DNA of 64,000 bases, taken from Planctomycetes bacterium ADurb.Bin069. GTDB lineage: Bacteria; Planctomycetota; UBA8108; UBA8890; UBA8898. Both the position numbers and the translations under genes were made by a program. The notes below the pieces were generated by a model that had not been told where the DNA came from, did not search any database, and was given only the letters and a program-made list of their open reading frames with translations. Positions 49,292 to 57,927 of this stretch are shown one piece after another. The DNA lies in contig MWEK01000007.1 of the NCBI GenBank assembly GCA_002070955.1, forward strand, positions 1 through 64,000, written 5' to 3'. Numbering within the stretch: position 1 is the first letter of the stretch; every line of letters begins with the position of its first letter.

Positions 49292-50716
49292 TCACAAGAG
49301 GGCCTCGACAGGGGCGCTGTAACCGAGCCGTTCGATCTCATGCCAACGCTGTGCTTTGTAGTACGCGCGGATCATGATCATGGTTTCCGCCGTGTCTTCG
49401 TGCCAGAAGATGCCGGGCCCCTTGAGGCGCATGTTGATGACGCGCCGAACGGCGCTCTCCATGGGACCACTGCCGATGGGGACACGCAGCCGTCGAGCCC
49501 ATGCGTAGCAGAAACGACCGCCATTGTTGAGGAAGTAGTGCATCTCCCGCTTGAGAGCCTTATTCCGTGGGTGACGGCGCACGAGTCGTTGCATGTCGGC
49601 GAGGACTTTTCCGATCTTGCCCTTGCGCAATAGAGAACGCGCTTTGTTTCGCCAACGGGTACGACAGGCCGAATGCCAGCCAGGATACTCTTGGGCAAAG
49701 ACGCCCAGGTGTTGGACTGCATGGTAGAAGTCGATCAGTTGCAGGACCTGACCAACCCCTGCCAGGCAGCCATCTTTCACAATGGCCTCGAAGCGCGCCC
49801 AGATCCAGGGCGCGCCGTCGGCGATCAGGACGACACGCGTGGGCTGAATAGAGAGCAGCGACGGCAAGTACAGACGGAGCATGTCGAAGAGGGTATCGGC
49901 CCCGCCGAGCGTGCCATCGATCAACGGCGAGAAAGAGCGATCCACGGATCCATCGGGATTGAGGACGTAGACATGCAGGAGCAACGGCTCGCGCCAGTCG
50001 GTATGGTATCGACGCCGGCCTTTTCGCGTAGGAGGACCGCGCTTGTCGCGGCGCACCCGCAATCGACCCCCGTCCACCGATATGACCAACGTGCGTCCCT
50101 CGCCGTTCGGGGTCATGATCCGCAAGTGGTCCGGCAATGCGGAGCGGGCGCACTGGCCGAAACGGCGCGTGATCCGGCGTATCGTTTTGACGTCCACGTC
50201 TAACCCGCCGGTGTCACGGAGACATGCAGCCGCCTCCTCCAGGGAACTCATGGCGCACGCGGCGCGTGCAATCTGCGAGGTGGCGCCTGGCGAGGCACGT
50301 TCCTGGATACCCAGTAGCACGAACGCCGGGAATAGCCCCTTCTCCCGACGCAGGACGTCGCGCTTGCGCCGTCGATAGTACTGAGTGGACAACGGCACTC
50401 GCGGTCCGCGCTGGAACTGTACGTATACCGTCCGTACGTCTGCAGGTTTCAGGCGTTTGGACGTTGCGGCGGCCAGTTCTTGCGCCTTCGCCTTGACCGC
50501 AGCGCGGTCCAACGCCAGTTGAGTCACGGTCCCCATCACGATGGCGTGCACCGCGTCACAACCCCGCGTGCATTCCCGCTCGAACGCTGCAAGATCTGCC
50601 GCGGTCTCCAGGGGTGGCGGATGCTCGGCCAGTTCCTCCACTGCCCGCAGGGAGGCGCGGACACGCTCGAGCCAGTGCCCTGCCGGGGTCTCGCACGCGA
50701 TCGCCGCAGTGGTCAA
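49292..50716 (-). CDS. Insertion-sequence transposase
   Basis: 474 residues if it starts at the TTG at 50716 that overlaps the TGA of the upstream DUF6788 gene; the frame is open to 50824. Visible are an N-terminal helical part, TLVISVDGGRLRVRRDKRG (first catalytic Asp of the DDE/RNase H fold), VVLIADGAPWIWARFEAI followed by QLIDFYHAVQHLGVFA (second Asp region), and VPIGSGPMESAVRRVINMRLKGPGIFW with the catalytic Glu, followed by AETMIMIRAYYKAQRWHEI. The gene looks intact, so the element may still be active. Its family is ISKra4-like or another DDE group with a GSGxxES motif; this is inference. Confidence 0.9.
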   Translation of the reverse strand: MTTAAIACETPAGHWLERVRASLRAVEELAEHPPPLETAADLAAFERECTRGCDAVHAIVMGTVTQLALDRAAVKAKAQELAAATSKRLKPADVRTVYVQFQRGPRVPLSTQYYRRRKRDVLRREKGLFPAFVLLGIQERASPGATSQIARAACAMSSLEEAAACLRDTGGLDVDVKTIRRITRRFGQCARSALPDHLRIMTPNGEGRTLVISVDGGRLRVRRDKRGPPTRKGRRRYHTDWREPLLLHVYVLNPDGSVDRSFSPLIDGTLGGADTLFDMLRLYLPSLLSIQPTRVVLIADGAPWIWARFEAIVKDGCLAGVGQVLQLIDFYHAVQHLGVFAQEYPGWHSACRTRWRNKARSLLRKGKIGKVLADMQRLVRRHPRNKALKREMHYFLNNGGRFCYAWARRLRVPIGSGPMESAVRRVINMRLKGPGIFWHEDTAETMIMIRAYYKAQRWHEIERLGYSAPVEALL

Positions 50717-51051
50717 CCCCGTTCCGTGACCAATGCGGCGACGCCCATGCGTCGCGCCTCTTCCACGTAGGCAGCAACGAGTTGCGTGCTCAGTTCCTTG
50801 AAGCGCCGATACCGCCGCACGCACTCGCGCACGGTCGGGAGTTCTTCGCGTTTGAAGAACATCGTGGAGCTTCGGCCGCCCACGGAGAAGCTCAGCTGGT
50901 AGTACGGGCCGTGTCGCTGGGGCCGCTCCGGGTCCTTACACCGGCAGGCAGGCTTGCCGCAGACGTTCCATTGGGTGCTGATGCTGCCGGGCAGCATCGG
51001 TCCGAGCGCATTGAGCGCTTCCTTGAGCGTGGCAATCGACTTGCGGGCCAT
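50713..51051 (-). CDS. DUF6788-like accessory protein of the insertion sequence
   Basis: 112 residues. A short helical start (MARKSIATLKEALNAL) leads into VCGKPACRCKDPERPQRHGPYYQLSFSVGGRSSTMFF, a Cys-containing motif of small IS-associated proteins, then a long basic helix. It precedes the transposase and its TGA overlaps the transposase TTG, so the two are translationally coupled. AAGGAGG lies just before the ATG. The role is unknown; DNA binding or regulation of transposition is a reasonable guess. Confidence 0.8.
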   Translation of the reverse strand: MARKSIATLKEALNALGPMLPGSISTQWNVCGKPACRCKDPERPQRHGPYYQLSFSVGGRSSTMFFKREELPTVRECVRRYRRFKELSTQLVAAYVEEARRMGVAALVTERG

Positions 51052-51062
51052 ATGACCTCCTT

Positions 51063-51087
51063 CCGATAGCATGCATACGGCTATCGG
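51063..51087. promoter_or_regulatory. Inverted repeat in the IS leader, next to the ribosome site
   Basis: CCGATAGC and GCTATCGG form perfect 8-bp arms around nine bases. On the minus strand the hairpin would lie at the very 5' end of the IS transcript, directly before AAGGAGG and the ATG of the DUF6788 gene. It may limit readthrough translation from outside or serve as an operator. Confidence 0.6.
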
Positions 51088-51088
51088 A

Positions 51089-51116
51089 ATTATGCCACAA
51101 AAAAACGGTTCCGCAA
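51089..51116 (-). promoter_or_regulatory. Promoter of the insertion-sequence genes
   Basis: Read on the minus strand, TTGCGG (51116-51111) and CATAAT (51094-51089) are 16 bases apart. It lies inside the right end of the element and would start the message at the hairpin. Confidence 0.6.
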
Positions 51117-51127
51117 GCCCCTTTTTC

Positions 51128-51150
51128 GGACACAATTTGGGAATGCTCCC
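51128..51150 (-). repeat. Right terminal inverted repeat of the insertion sequence
   Basis: On the minus strand it begins GGGAGCATTCCC and continues AAATTGTGTCC, 20 of 23 identical to the left end. It marks the junction with the interrupted WG-repeat gene. Confidence 0.9.
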
Positions 51151-51592
51151 TGGCCCCTGTCTTGTCGACATATCCCCAGTTGTTATGCAACTTGACTGCC
51201 GCGAGCCCCTCGTAAAACGCACTCACTTCTGCAAAACGCGGTTCAATGACAACTGCTCCTGTCCGGTCACAGAATCCCCAAAGTTCACGGCTCATGGAGC
51301 GCCGCCGGAAGCAACAGAAACCCTCGGAAAAAAAGCCGCAAAACCAATCAGCTGGTTCCTCCAAGATCGTCTTGCCCGTGCGGTCGATGAAGCTCCAACC
51401 TGCGTCTGTCTTGACCTTCGCCAGACCGTCGAAAAAGCCTCGCACGTTGTCGAACTTAGCCTCGATTACGATCCGCCCGTTTTCATCAATGAAACCGTTC
51501 TTTCCCGACGCTGTCCGAAAAGGATAGAGTTCGCCCTTCCCGGCGTCAGCAAGGCTAAGTCCAAACCACAAGAAAATAATTGCGGACTGCAT
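51151..51592 (-). pseudogene. WG-repeat protein gene, truncated by the insertion sequence
   Basis: From ATG 51592 (AAGGGAGG upstream) a signal peptide (MQSAIIFLWFGLSLADAG) is followed by WG/KWG beta repeats: GFIDENGRIVIEAKFDNVRGFFDGLAKV, WSFIDRTGKTIL, WGFCDRTGAVVIEPRFAEVSAFYEGLAAV and WGYVDKTGA. The frame then runs into the inverted repeat at 51150 and ends inside the element (TGA-free fusion to 50936). The distal repeats are not present on the far side, so the gene is truncated, probably with loss of adjoining DNA. The DNA is near 50% G+C, unlike the chromosome average. Confidence 0.8.
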
Positions 51593-52302: not shown

Positions 52303-55300
52303 ATGCCGAGCATCGTCTTCGAGCGAGGAAGCCTGCGCGGGAAGCGATGGCTGCTTCCCGCCGGCGGCGTCATTCGCTTCGGCCGCGACCAGGCCTGCCA
52401 AGTCCAGGTCCGGGACGCCATGGTTTCCCGCATCCACTGCATTCTGCGCGGCGACAGGGACGTGTGGACCATCGAGGACGCGGGCAGCCGCAACGGCACC
52501 ATGGTCAACGGCGCCGCGGTTCGGAAAACCACCCTCGCCCCCGGCGATCTCGTCCGCATCGGCGACTCGGTCTTCTCCTTTCTCGCCACCCAGGACGATC
52601 CCTTGGTCGGCACGACGCTGGGAGGCTATCGCCTGCAGGCGCGCATCGGGCGCGGCGGCATGGGCACCGTCTACCGCGCCCACCAAATCTCGCTCGAGCG
52701 CGAGGTCGCGCTCAAGATTCTGACGGCTTCGCTGGGCGCGAATCCGGAGTTCGTGGCGCGCTTCATGAAGGAGGCCCGCGCGGCCGCGCGCCTCAACCAC
52801 CCCAACGTCGTTCAGGTCCACGACGCGGGCTTCGAGGGGAACGCGCACTACATCGCCATGGAGTACCTGCCAGGCGGCGCGTTGGAGGACGCCATTCTGA
52901 AGCGCGGCCCCATCCCCTTCCGCGAGGCCGTCGCCATGGCCTGCGACGCCTTGAAAGCCCTCGCCTTCGCCCAGGCGCACGGAATCGTGCATCGCGACAT
53001 CAAGCCCGGCAACCTCCTGCTGACCGATAGCGGCGCCGTCAAGGTCTGCGATCTCGGCATCGCGCTCGACCTGCGGCAGCCCGATGCGTCGCGCGAGGGC
53101 GCCACGGCCGGCTCCCCCGCCTACATGGCGCCCGAGCAGGCCCGCGGCGAGACGCTCGACCACCGCGCCGACCTGTACGCCCTCGGCGCCACGCTCTACC
53201 ACGCCATCGCCGGCGCGCCGCCCTTCGACGGCGCGACCATCAAGGAGATTTTGAACAAAAAGGTGTCCCAAGAGGCGCCGCCGCTGGCGGAGCGCGCGCC
53301 CGCCGTGCCGCGGCGTCTCTCGCTGGCCGTCGCCAGGCTGCTTGCGCGGAATCCCGCCGAGCGCTTCGCGTCGGCGGAGGAAGCCGAAGCGGCTCTCAAC
53401 GCGGCGCTCGACGTTCCCAGCCTAGCCGCCAGCCCGCGCGCGAGCTCGGCGGCGCCGGCCGACTCCCGCAAAAAGCTGCGTCTCGCCGGCCTGATCGGCG
53501 CGGCGGCCGCGGTGGCGATCGCCGCCGCCATCGCGTTTGTGGCCGTTCCGCCCCCGAGCGCGACGCCTGAGCGCGACACGGCCGAGGTCGCGCCGGAGCC
53601 GGTCCCGACCCTCGCCGCGCCCGCCGCCGTGGAGGCTCCGCCCCCTCCGGCCGAGGCGCGGGAAAGCCGCCCCGCGGAAGCCCCGGCGCCTTCCAAGGCC
53701 GCGGAGGATGCAGGCCGCGCGGCCGAGACTCTCGCCCGCCGCGTCGAAGGCCTGCTCGCCGAGGGCGACCTGGCCGGCGCCGCCGCGGCGCTCGCCGGCT
53801 TCCCCGCCTCCGCCAACTCCGCCGCCCTCCGGGCGCCGCTTCAGGAGACGCTCGAGGCGAAGATCAATGCCGCCCTTGCGGCCTGCGCCACCCGCGCTAC
53901 GGAGCTCTGCGATGCCGCGCGCTTCGACGCCGCCCGCGACGAAGTGGAGAAGCTGCGCGCCCGTCTGCCCTCCGTCGAGCGGCGGCGCGTCGAAGGCATC
54001 CTCCAGGTGGTGAGCCACGCCCAGTCCGTGCACACGGCCACCGTGATGGCCTTGGATCTCGCCACGCACGAGCTTATGGAACGGGTGGCGGCCCTCGACT
54101 TCCCGGCGGCGTTCAAAACTCTCGATGACTTTCTTGCGCAGCGGCCGAAGGCCCGGGATCGGATCGCGCCGCTCAGGGCCGAGGTGGAAGCGGCGGCGGC
54201 GCTCTGGGAGCGGCTCACGAAGGCCGTCGAAGAAGCCGCCGCGGCCCAGAAGGAGCTCGACCTAACGTTCCTTCCCGACCCGCTCGCAAGCCCCGCGGCG
54301 AGCCGCTTGCGCGTGACCGCGGTGGCACGCGGCCGCGTGAGCCTCGAGGCCGCGGACGGTTCGAAGCGCAAGGAAGTGCGGGCGCTCTTCGAATTCGCGC
54401 CCGCCGCCCTCCTCGGACTCCTGGGCGATGTCGAGCCGCCGCCGGCGCTCAGCCTCCTCTGCCTCCTGCGCGCCGGCGTGGATCCGAACGCGGCGTTCCC
54501 CAACGCCTCCGCGGCATCCGAGGAGGTCCGCGCCGAGGACGCGGCACGAGTCGCCGCGTTCGGCACGTTGTGGCTGAACGCGCGCCGGGAAGAGCTCAAA
54601 GCCTTCCGCGAGGAACTCGCCGCGGCGGAGAAGGCCGCGCCAGAGGAGTGGACCTTTGCGGCGCGCGAGGCCGCGCGGCTTCTCCACGCGTGGCCGGATC
54701 CTCCGGCCGGCGTAGCGTCCGACCTCGCCAAGGGGTTCGTCGCCGATCGCGCCAAGGCTCTCCTGAACCGGCCCCTGGAGAGTTTTTTCCACGCCCAATC
54801 CCTGAAGACACTCCAATCCGGCGGCATCCTCCTGACCTACGATTTCGCCGACGACGCCCAGCTTGAGGATTTCGTGCCGGCGCGCCCCGCGCGGGCGCCC
54901 GCCAAGTCCGCGGGCTCCGGGGGGAAGGCCGGCGCCTCGCCCGGGGTGTGCAAACGGCTGTCCGACAAGAAGGCCCTGGAGCTCACGGGCGAAGTGCGGT
55001 TTCTTCACGGCGATCCCTTCGAGGAGACCATCGTCGTCACCGGCAAGGTGGGCGCGTGCGCGGCCGAGGCGCCCAACGTGAACGTCGCCGTCTTCACCTC
55101 CCCTGAGGACGCCGTCGCCTTCACGCCGGCAGAGTTCGACGGGAACGCCTGGTGGCGCCGCAGGGGGCGGCTGCTGCGGCCCGAGTACGTGGTCTTCGGC
55201 ACGGGCTACCACCTTCCTCTTGAGCTCAGCGACGAAGTGCTCGCCGCGGGGGGACGGCGCGCGCTCGGCGCCGCGCACGGACGGGAACCGTCCTTCGCGC

Positions 55301-56565
55301 TCCTGGGAGGGGAGCACGGCCGGAATCTCGGTTACAGCCCGGAGCAAATTCTGTGGTCGCAGGCGGGAAGCGGCGGGCTCGCGTCGTCGTTCACCTTCCA
55401 GGTGGGCGCCGGCAAAGGCGCGCTGCAATGGACGGTGAAAGGCAGGAAAGTGCCCTTTGCGAAAACGCCCGACATCGCGCGGCTCGGCGAAACGCTTTCG
55501 ACGCGGGGCTCGTTTTCGCTTTTCACGCTGGGAAGCACGGTCGTCTACACCGGCCTGGAAGTCCAGGGCAAGCTCAGGGCGGCCTGGCCCGCTGAGGAAG
55601 CCGAGCGCCTGGCGCGGGAGGAACTCGCGCTCCTCGGGTCGAACGTGAACCTCGCCTGGCTGCCCGAGGCGGACGGCGCCGCGCGCGAAAAGCCCGCCGG
55701 GGACAAGGCGGCCGCCGCGCCCGCCGCGGCGTCGGAGGAGGCCGCGGACGCGCCGGACGTGTGGGCCTTCCTCGCTCAGCACAAGTCCTTGCTCTTCGCC
55801 TGCCCGGCCAAGTTCTCCGGCGGCAAGGTCGTCCTCGATTACTCCGCCGGCGAGGCGTTGGGAAAAGATGCCGTGGCGCGCAGCTACGGGAAATCCAAGC
55901 TCGTGTTCCACCGCGAGAGCGCGCGGACATTGTCGCCCATGTCCTTCGAGGCCGGCGGCGACAAGAGTTGTTTCTTCATCGAGCCCCGCTTCACGCGCCA
56001 CGTGCGCGTGTCCATGACCGTGGAAATGGAGGTCGTGGCCGCCGGCGACGCCTATGTCGTCGTGCACGTCATGAGCGACAAGGCGGGCAACGGCTACGGC
56101 TGCAAGTTCGGCGCCATCGCCGGCTACGCCACCGGGGTGTTCGGTTTCAGGGCGGGCGCGCCCAGCACCGTCGCGGGCGCCATGACGAAGCCTCCGAAGG
56201 ACTGGGTCGTCAAGGCGCCCCGCGACTGGGTCATCGATTTCGAGTGGCCCGAGGAAGCGGCGGCCGGCAGCCTCACGGCCACGTTCAGCGGGAAGATCGT
56301 CTCCAAGATCGAGAAGATCAAGGCGGCGTCTTCGGGCGCATTGCCCGCGGGCCGCGTGGGCGTTTCGTGGAACAAGTGCATGTTCACCGTCAGGGACCTC
56401 AAGATCGAGGGCGTGCTCGACCAGGCGTGGGCCATGGAGAAGCTTCGGGGGCTGGGCGTGGAGATTCCCCCGGCGCTTCGCGTGGAGGCGGGCCTCAAAC
56501 ACGAAACTGAGAGCGCGGAGTCCGCCGGCGAAAAGCCCGCCGGCACGGCGCCGCCCTCTCGATAA
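52303..56565 (+). CDS. FHA-domain Ser/Thr protein kinase with large extracytoplasmic region
   Basis: 1420 residues. An N-terminal FHA phosphothreonine-binding domain (about 1-95: IRFGRDQACQVQVRD, VSRIHC, SRNGTMVNG) precedes a Hanks-type kinase (about 107-370) with glycine loop GRGGMGTVY, Lys138, HRDIKPGN (Asp232), CDLG (Asp250, DFG position) and APEQARG. A membrane helix follows (about 391-415), then a Pro/Ala linker, a long helical region (about 440-780) and two beta-rich segments (about 850-1130 and 1200-1400) resembling concanavalin/LamG-type domains. GAGGA lies before the ATG. FHA inside with sensor-like domains outside suggests a signalling receptor. The gene downstream (22 bases) encodes a membrane protein of GIDE-LemA type. 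Confidence 0.9.
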   Translation: MPSIVFERGSLRGKRWLLPAGGVIRFGRDQACQVQVRDAMVSRIHCILRGDRDVWTIEDAGSRNGTMVNGAAVRKTTLAPGDLVRIGDSVFSFLATQDDPLVGTTLGGYRLQARIGRGGMGTVYRAHQISLEREVALKILTASLGANPEFVARFMKEARAAARLNHPNVVQVHDAGFEGNAHYIAMEYLPGGALEDAILKRGPIPFREAVAMACDALKALAFAQAHGIVHRDIKPGNLLLTDSGAVKVCDLGIALDLRQPDASREGATAGSPAYMAPEQARGETLDHRADLYALGATLYHAIAGAPPFDGATIKEILNKKVSQEAPPLAERAPAVPRRLSLAVARLLARNPAERFASAEEAEAALNAALDVPSLAASPRASSAAPADSRKKLRLAGLIGAAAAVAIAAAIAFVAVPPPSATPERDTAEVAPEPVPTLAAPAAVEAPPPPAEARESRPAEAPAPSKAAEDAGRAAETLARRVEGLLAEGDLAGAAAALAGFPASANSAALRAPLQETLEAKINAALAACATRATELCDAARFDAARDEVEKLRARLPSVERRRVEGILQVVSHAQSVHTATVMALDLATHELMERVAALDFPAAFKTLDDFLAQRPKARDRIAPLRAEVEAAAALWERLTKAVEEAAAAQKELDLTFLPDPLASPAASRLRVTAVARGRVSLEAADGSKRKEVRALFEFAPAALLGLLGDVEPPPALSLLCLLRAGVDPNAAFPNASAASEEVRAEDAARVAAFGTLWLNARREELKAFREELAAAEKAAPEEWTFAAREAARLLHAWPDPPAGVASDLAKGFVADRAKALLNRPLESFFHAQSLKTLQSGGILLTYDFADDAQLEDFVPARPARAPAKSAGSGGKAGASPGVCKRLSDKKALELTGEVRFLHGDPFEETIVVTGKVGACAAEAPNVNVAVFTSPEDAVAFTPAEFDGNAWWRRRGRLLRPEYVVFGTGYHLPLELSDEVLAAGGRRALGAAHGREPSFALLGGEHGRNLGYSPEQILWSQAGSGGLASSFTFQVGAGKGALQWTVKGRKVPFAKTPDIARLGETLSTRGSFSLFTLGSTVVYTGLEVQGKLRAAWPAEEAERLAREELALLGSNVNLAWLPEADGAAREKPAGDKAAAAPAAASEEAADAPDVWAFLAQHKSLLFACPAKFSGGKVVLDYSAGEALGKDAVARSYGKSKLVFHRESARTLSPMSFEAGGDKSCFFIEPRFTRHVRVSMTVEMEVVAAGDAYVVVHVMSDKAGNGYGCKFGAIAGYATGVFGFRAGAPSTVAGAMTKPPKDWVVKAPRDWVIDFEWPEEAAAGSLTATFSGKIVSKIEKIKAASSGALPAGRVGVSWNKCMFTVRDLKIEGVLDQAWAMEKLRGLGVEIPPALRVEAGLKHETESAESAGEKPAGTAPPSR

Positions 56566-56586
56566 CGCGCCGCCGGCGTCTTGACC

Positions 56587-57927
56587 ATGGAAGCCGCCAT
56601 GACCCAGGAACTCGCGTGGAAGCTGGTGCCGCCGTCGATCGGCGCTCTGCTGGCCCTGGGGTGCCTGTACCTGGCGATGCGCACCGGAGCGCGCCAACGC
56701 CTGGTGGACAACCTGCCCACCTCGAAGACCACCGGAGTCTTCGTCGGGCTGGTGGAGGTGCAAGGCACCGCGGAATCGGAGGTGCCTCTCACCAGCTTCC
56801 TGGCTGAGCGGAGCTGCGTCTTTTACCGGTGGTCGATCGAGGAGCACTGGTCGCGCACGGTGACGGAAACGTACACCGACAGTAAAGGCCAGACCCATAC
56901 CCGCACCCGGCGCGAGAGCGGCTGGAGCACCGTGGCCGCCGGCGGACAATCCGCGCCCTTCTACCTCCGGGACGACCACGGCGTGGTGCTGGTGCGGCCC
57001 GAGGGCGCCGAGATCCAGCCCGCGGTCGTTCTCTCCGCGACTTGCGGACCCGGCGATCTCTTGTACTACGCGAAGGGCCCGGCGGCGGCCGTGGCCAATT
57101 CGGATCATCGCCGGCGCTTCTTCGAATCCGCCGTCGTCCTGCATGCCCCGCTTTACGTGCTCGGCCAGGCACGCGAGCGATCGGACGTCGTCGCTCCGGA
57201 AATCGCGCATGACAAGTCCGCTCCCCTTTTCTTGATCTCCACCCGGAGCGAAAAGCTGGTCAGCGCCACCATGAAAGCGGGGGCCTGGATCTGGGCCGCA
57301 ATAGGGTTGATCTTTGCCGCGGCCGGTCCCGCGGTCGCCCTGTTGCTTTGCGAGTCCGAGGCGGAGCAGATCGACCCGACTCCGATCGCCTTGGCCGGGG
57401 CGGCTTACCTGCTCGCCGGAGCCGTGGGTTGGGTCTGGATGGTGTTCAACAGCATGGTGGACCTGCGCCAGCGCGTGCGGCAGGCCTGGTCCCTGGTGGA
57501 CGTGCAACTCAAGCGGCGCCATGACCTCATTCCCAGACTCGTCGCCACGGTGAGCGAACTGCGCGATTACGAGCGGCGCCTGCAAGCTGAGATCGCGGAC
57601 CTGCGCGGGCAAATGGCGACCGCGCCGCCGGGAGAGGCCGGACCGCGCGATCACGCGGTGGGCGCGGTGCTTGCGGCGATCGAGGAGCGGTACCCCGAGT
57701 TGAAGTCGCAGGCGGCCTTCCTGAACCTGCAGAAAGAGCTGGCCGACACCGAAACCCGCATTGCCCTGGCGCGGGACTACTTCAACGCGATCGCCGTGCA
57801 CTACAACACGCGGCTGGAAATCGTGCCCGATCGCTTCGTCGCCGCCCTAGCTCGGATGCGTCCTCAGGCCTTGATGGCCGCGGGCGACTTCGAGCGCGCC
57901 CCGGTGTCCGTCAAGCTGGTCGCGTAG
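56587..57927 (+). CDS. GIDE-domain plus LemA-like membrane protein
   Basis: 446 residues from the ATG at 56587 (56599 is an alternative; a TTG at 56581 is also in frame). A first membrane helix (about 14-30) is followed by a GIDE-type domain (about 45-225: VEVQGTAESEVPLTSFLAERSCVFYRWSIEEHW, FYLRDDHGVVLVRPEGAE), two more helices (about 235-285) and a LemA-like coiled region (MVDLRQRVRQAWSLVDVQLKRRHDLIPRLVATV, FLNLQKELADTETRIALARDYFNAIAVHYNTRLEIVP). GIDE and LemA fusions occur in many bacteria; LemA domains are thought to form membrane-associated helical bundles. It follows the FHA-kinase closely and could be its partner, by position only. Confidence 0.88.
   Translation: MEAAMTQELAWKLVPPSIGALLALGCLYLAMRTGARQRLVDNLPTSKTTGVFVGLVEVQGTAESEVPLTSFLAERSCVFYRWSIEEHWSRTVTETYTDSKGQTHTRTRRESGWSTVAAGGQSAPFYLRDDHGVVLVRPEGAEIQPAVVLSATCGPGDLLYYAKGPAAAVANSDHRRRFFESAVVLHAPLYVLGQARERSDVVAPEIAHDKSAPLFLISTRSEKLVSATMKAGAWIWAAIGLIFAAAGPAVALLLCESEAEQIDPTPIALAGAAYLLAGAVGWVWMVFNSMVDLRQRVRQAWSLVDVQLKRRHDLIPRLVATVSELRDYERRLQAEIADLRGQMATAPPGEAGPRDHAVGAVLAAIEERYPELKSQAAFLNLQKELADTETRIALARDYFNAIAVHYNTRLEIVPDRFVAALARMRPQALMAAGDFERAPVSVKLVA

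Follow-up and report, generated by a model that had tools for sequence, protein, structure and literature searches.

The window analysed here (the whole stretch of 64,000 nucleotides) carries the gene of a receptor kinase that ends in two domains, which we call D1 and D2, followed by the gene of a GIDE (BAM)-LemA membrane protein. The features of the two genes are given below.

52303-56565, plus strand: FHA-Ser/Thr kinase-TM-stalk-D1-D2 receptor kinase, 1420 amino acids (open reading frame, Pfam, same-genus orthologue at L043:13446-17888)
52372-52563, plus strand: FHA domain, residues 24-87 (Pfam, E 4.6e-17), with GR at 27, SRIH at 42 and NGT at 64
52627-53373, plus strand: protein kinase domain, residues 109-357 (Pfam Pkinase, E 1.1e-44, and motifs)
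53491-53547, plus strand: single membrane helix, residues 397-415 (hydrophobicity, with R/K residues N-terminal to the helix)
53548-54777, plus strand: long stalk, residues 416-825 (helical for the most part as judged by eye; conserved in the orthologues)
54778-55704, plus strand: D1, predicted ConA-like jelly roll, residues 826-1134 (AlphaFold model and Foldseek; tail of kinases of the class)
55720-56562, plus strand: D2, predicted ConA-like jelly roll, core about residues 1150-1400 (AlphaFold model and Foldseek; common to a class-wide lipoprotein)
56581-57927, plus strand: GIDE (BAM)-LemA membrane protein, 448 residues from a TTG start, or starting at the ATG at 56587 (Pfam; adjoins the kinase gene)
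56869-57315, plus strand: GIDE domain, residues 97-245 (PF12483, E 3.5e-19, 69.3 bits against a cut-off of 23.6)
57484-57915, plus strand: LemA domain, residues 302-445 (PF04011 above cut-off, E 1.7e-32)

The original prediction had placed an FHA domain, a kinase, a membrane helix, a helical stalk and two beta-rich ends in a single chain of 1420 residues, and this is confirmed by the reading frame, the Pfam matches, the helix and the AlphaFold models. On inspection of the motifs, the R, S, H and N positions of the FHA domain are all as expected, and the kinase domain keeps GRGGMGTV, VALK, HRDIKPGN, DLG (in place of DFG) and APEQ, that is, the glycine loop, catalytic Lys, HRD, DFG-type Asp and APE of a Hanks-type kinase. 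The helix at residues 397-415, which lies between the kinase and the sensor part, is the only transmembrane helix of the chain, and together with its basic N-terminal flank it predicts a topology with the kinase inside and the tail outside. The stalk gave no match in a Pfam scan. The frame and the domain order recur in orthologues and paralogues from other genomes, which excludes a chance arrangement.

Searches of D1 and D2 by sequence against Pfam and the PDB, profiles included, returned no usable match. The AlphaFold models, built on shallow alignments (5 and 10 rows), are beta-rich for both domains, with a pLDDT of 73 and a pTM of 0.75 for D1 (residues about 826-1134), and 81 and 0.80 for D2 (about 1150-1400). 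When the two models were compared with the PDB by Foldseek, almost all matches were ConA-like proteins: the best ones for D1 (E 5.8e-6 and weaker) include SraP, VIP36, phytohaemagglutinin, YesU (1oq1) and GH16/PL7 enzymes, and those for D2 (E 1e-6 and weaker) include Emp46p, CBM66, legume lectins and a DUF1080 protein (3hbk). Against individual PDB structures the TM-scores reach modest values of about 0.3-0.6, and the likeness to L-type lectins, CBM66 and YesU, all of the ConA-like superfamily, lies in the overall predicted fold, with identities of about 6-13%. Between D1 and D2 there is only a weak sequence likeness, located towards the final strands (hhalign probability 48%). As a prediction, the ConA-like lectin/glucanase fold of both domains is well supported, and the lectin-like outer domains that had been proposed are thus borne out at the level of predicted fold; models lacking a carbohydrate-binding fold, the outcome set beforehand as speaking against the proposal, were obtained for neither domain. 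The ConA-like fold also serves ligands other than sugars and is therefore no proof of sugar binding, so that glycan sensing by D1 and D2, as judged from their fold, is possible.

A first scan of the genome collection for relatives used patterns chosen from a mixed D1 and D2 alignment, in which rows of separate proteins were joined for that purpose only. D1 is present in 10 of the 29 class genomes searched, strongly in nine, and in several families it is almost always the tail of a kinase or FHA-kinase, the exception being an FHA-D1 copy in G017 with no kinase match in its frame. The genome of the window encodes a second FHA-kinase (C40) that has D1 and no D2, and a likely orthologue with both domains is found in the same genus, in Planctomycetes bacterium UBA4800 (G001, contig DHGK01000261.1). 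Beyond the class, weak D1 matches were checked at nine loci, of which eight encode kinases with the match in a C-terminal part where no Pfam domain could be named; the ninth (L185) encodes a protein of 401 amino acids with no Pfam match. D1 is best explained as the sensor that this family of kinases acquired earlier in the class. Two proteins of 1320-1350 amino acids, at L127:5996-10057 (G000:C22) and L128:8386-12357 (G001), also have weakly D1-like tails; the kinase match is weak in the L128 copy and, in Pfam, missing from the L127 copy, and these may be degenerate kinases. In two kinases of family f4 (L046 and L047), a stretch behind D1 (DKNGDGKLDENE and DKNGDGSLDDDE) resembles a calcium-binding EF-hand loop.

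D2 has a different spread, since it is found in all 29 class genomes, with no strong match in the 363 other genomes of the phylum that were searched. The genome of the window has a separate D2-only protein (C1), in which a lipobox-like LLWSC can be read, and in the other families D2 lies in lipoprotein-like proteins, mostly of 560-800 amino acids. Their genes stand in a recurring order of accA, exbB-exbD (in some families), the D2 gene, gcvT, gcvH and the P-protein genes (gcvP), as seen at L051, L058, L059, L060, L135, L138, L139, L141 and L143. This class-wide protein is possibly a class marker and a partner of ExbBD. Within the genus, the D2 of the kinase and that of the lipoprotein share 55-63% identity, compared with about 25% to other families, which indicates that D2 was copied between the two inside the genus. 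The universal spread of the lipoprotein points to it as the most likely source of the kinase D2, by which a putative second binding surface would have been added.

Planctomycete kinases carrying DUF1080, which is ConA-like, on the periplasmic side have already been reported (PMC11032199), and they resemble the window kinase in the cytoplasmic kinase, the single transmembrane helix and the outer ConA-like domain; a DUF1080 structure (3hbk) is also among the fold matches of D2. For this reason, and from the kinase loci outside the class, the order kinase-TM-ConA-like is not without precedent in the phylum, and the view that such an arrangement is unusual does not hold. In contrast to the DUF1080 kinases, the window protein has two ConA-like domains in tandem, an N-terminal FHA domain and a long stalk, and its D1 and D2 have no sequence match to DUF1080 or any other Pfam family; no member of either alignment matched DUF1080 (3-keto-disaccharide hydrolase), at E-values up to 1. 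What is new here is thus two unrecognised ConA-like families in tandem, together with the N-terminal FHA domain and the long stalk.

This receptor type is real and recurs in these bacteria. In our view the protein is probably a single-span Hanks-type receptor kinase activated by a ligand, with the FHA and kinase domains in the cytoplasm and the stalk holding the tandem D1 and D2 outside the inner membrane. The two domains would attach to some component of the cell envelope or surface, either a polymer or a protein, and binding would cluster or re-orient the kinase domains, after which the activation loop would be autophosphorylated; the FHA domain, as elsewhere, could then hold on to the kinase itself, or to a substrate, once it carries a phosphothreonine. 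The signal sensed is known for few bacterial receptor kinases. D1 and D2 represent two putative sensor or binding domain families that have no Pfam model, the first marking a kinase subfamily and the second present throughout the 29 genomes, and identifying their ligands would open surface signalling to testing in a planctomycete lineage for which metagenome-assembled genomes are the main source here.

An alternative proposal, which we regard as tentative and rather doubtful, is that D1 kinases belong with secreted CotH-family proteins, the kinase on the inside sensing the cell surface or matrix and the CotH kinase-like protein on the outside modifying it. In Bacillus subtilis, CotH phosphorylates spore coat proteins as a Ser/Thr kinase (PMC7821199). 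In G001, the CotH gene lies about 208 bases behind the orthologous D1 kinase; four genomes of f4 have the same arrangement, with gaps of 0-24 bases where measured (three genomes), and in G013 CotH lies one gene further on, the gene directly after the kinase there encoding a weakly D2-like protein. The CotH-type neighbour looks secreted, occurs in three lineages and is a commoner neighbour of D1 kinases than GIDE. In addition, CotH (PF08757) is expanded in families f1, f3, f4 and f5, with 16-54 matches per genome (12 in G007), the expanded genomes being G000, G001, G003, G005, G009, G011, G013, G015, G017, G019 and G021, whereas f2 and f6, in which a strong D1 is likewise missing, have almost no CotH matches. 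Each class genome with a strong D1 has 16-50 CotH matches, and those without mostly have none, although G003, G007 and G015 have CotH and no D1, and genome size and ancestry confound this co-occurrence. No CotH gene stands beside the window kinase, the nearest one on the contig being at C7:92951, nor beside the C40 and C154 paralogues, and in G000 no listed kinase adjoins a listed CotH gene. The abundance of CotH makes some adjacency by chance expected and the f4 genomes amount to a single lineage, so that, with the window kinase having no such neighbour, the link is a lead only.

It is unlikely, but consistent with some of the data, that the protein is an envelope-surveillance kinase akin to the PASTA kinases PknB and StkP, one that would sense peptidoglycan or some other structural polymer through D2, its putative wall reader. 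The Hanks-type kinase, the single transmembrane helix and the extracytoplasmic sensor are shared with those proteins, and the kinase region scores well on the NCBIfam PASTA-kinase model, though at 305.5 it falls far under the cut-off of 450. D2 is a class-universal domain of lipoprotein type, and in several genomes its gene stands right behind exbB-exbD, an arrangement reminiscent of envelope systems of the Tol-Pal type. However, Pfam found no PASTA repeats in the window kinase, lectin-like jelly rolls being predicted instead, and the ExbBD neighbours are absent in several families. A broader reading, which we offer as speculation with little confidence, would give this uncultured class an envelope-sensing module of its own, with the class-defining D2 lipoprotein domain beside an ExbBD motor as one arm and the D1 kinases, tied genetically to secreted CotH kinase-like proteins, as the other, the two being fused in this genus so as to link inside and outside phosphorylation. 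Still less probable is that D1 and D2 are divergent enzymes or decoys on a constitutive or inactive kinase; GH16, PL7 and DUF1080 enzymes do share ConA-like folds, but all kinase motifs are kept and the fusion of D1 to a kinase persists from family to family.

The GIDE-LemA gene was correctly recognised beside the kinase gene, and the spacing given, 22 bases, was close, the gap being 15 bases to the TTG or 21 to the ATG. The two genes are perhaps co-transcribed. The protein resembles the BAM/GIDE and LemA proteins in having PF12483 and PF04011 above cut-off; its C-terminus is LemA, where Pfam found no RING finger of the kind that GIDE E3 ubiquitin ligases carry, and prokaryotic BAM/GIDE proteins have been reported to lack RING (PMC4457424). 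GIDE occurs in 30 of the 392 phylum genomes searched, and the other 29 loci are mostly GIDE-LemA fusions, which are common in Planctomycetota; literature searches for the two domains together brought up no publication on such a fusion. None of these 29 loci has a D1/D2 kinase within the flanks examined; only L155 has another kinase nearby, its GIDE being of a different type with no LemA nearby, and the four relatives from the same class have another LemA gene just upstream. In a tree of GIDE-LemA proteins the window protein is nearest to rows from other families and not from its own class, and since the support is weak and the L162 row was mis-read, horizontal transfer is only a suggestion.

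Downstream, the sulfatase that had been predicted is confirmed by Pfam, on the opposite strand, and the expected glycosidase received no confirming Pfam match, the next two genes encoding a Gfo/Idh/MocA-type oxidoreductase and a protein of 802 amino acids with only a sub-threshold F5/8C match; the genes around D1 kinases that were scanned with Pfam included no sulfatase. The proposal of a glycan-sensing pair, in which the kinase and GIDE-LemA would be dedicated to the downstream sulfatase and sugar genes, is very improbable, since despite the close spacing on one strand, the lectin-like predicted folds and the nearby sulfatase, the two genes were not found linked in the other class and phylum genomes searched, which is the second outcome set beforehand as speaking against the proposal, the sulfatase faces the other way, and the same-genus orthologue adjoins CotH in place of GIDE, with no GIDE found in that 84%-complete genome. 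On present evidence, GIDE-LemA would be a local neighbour of the kinase and not part of a conserved pathway. Upstream on the minus strand, a transposase-like frame and a small overlapping one at 49292-51222 look like an insertion sequence, and a WG-repeat frame at 50936-51592 runs into them and may be interrupted by them.
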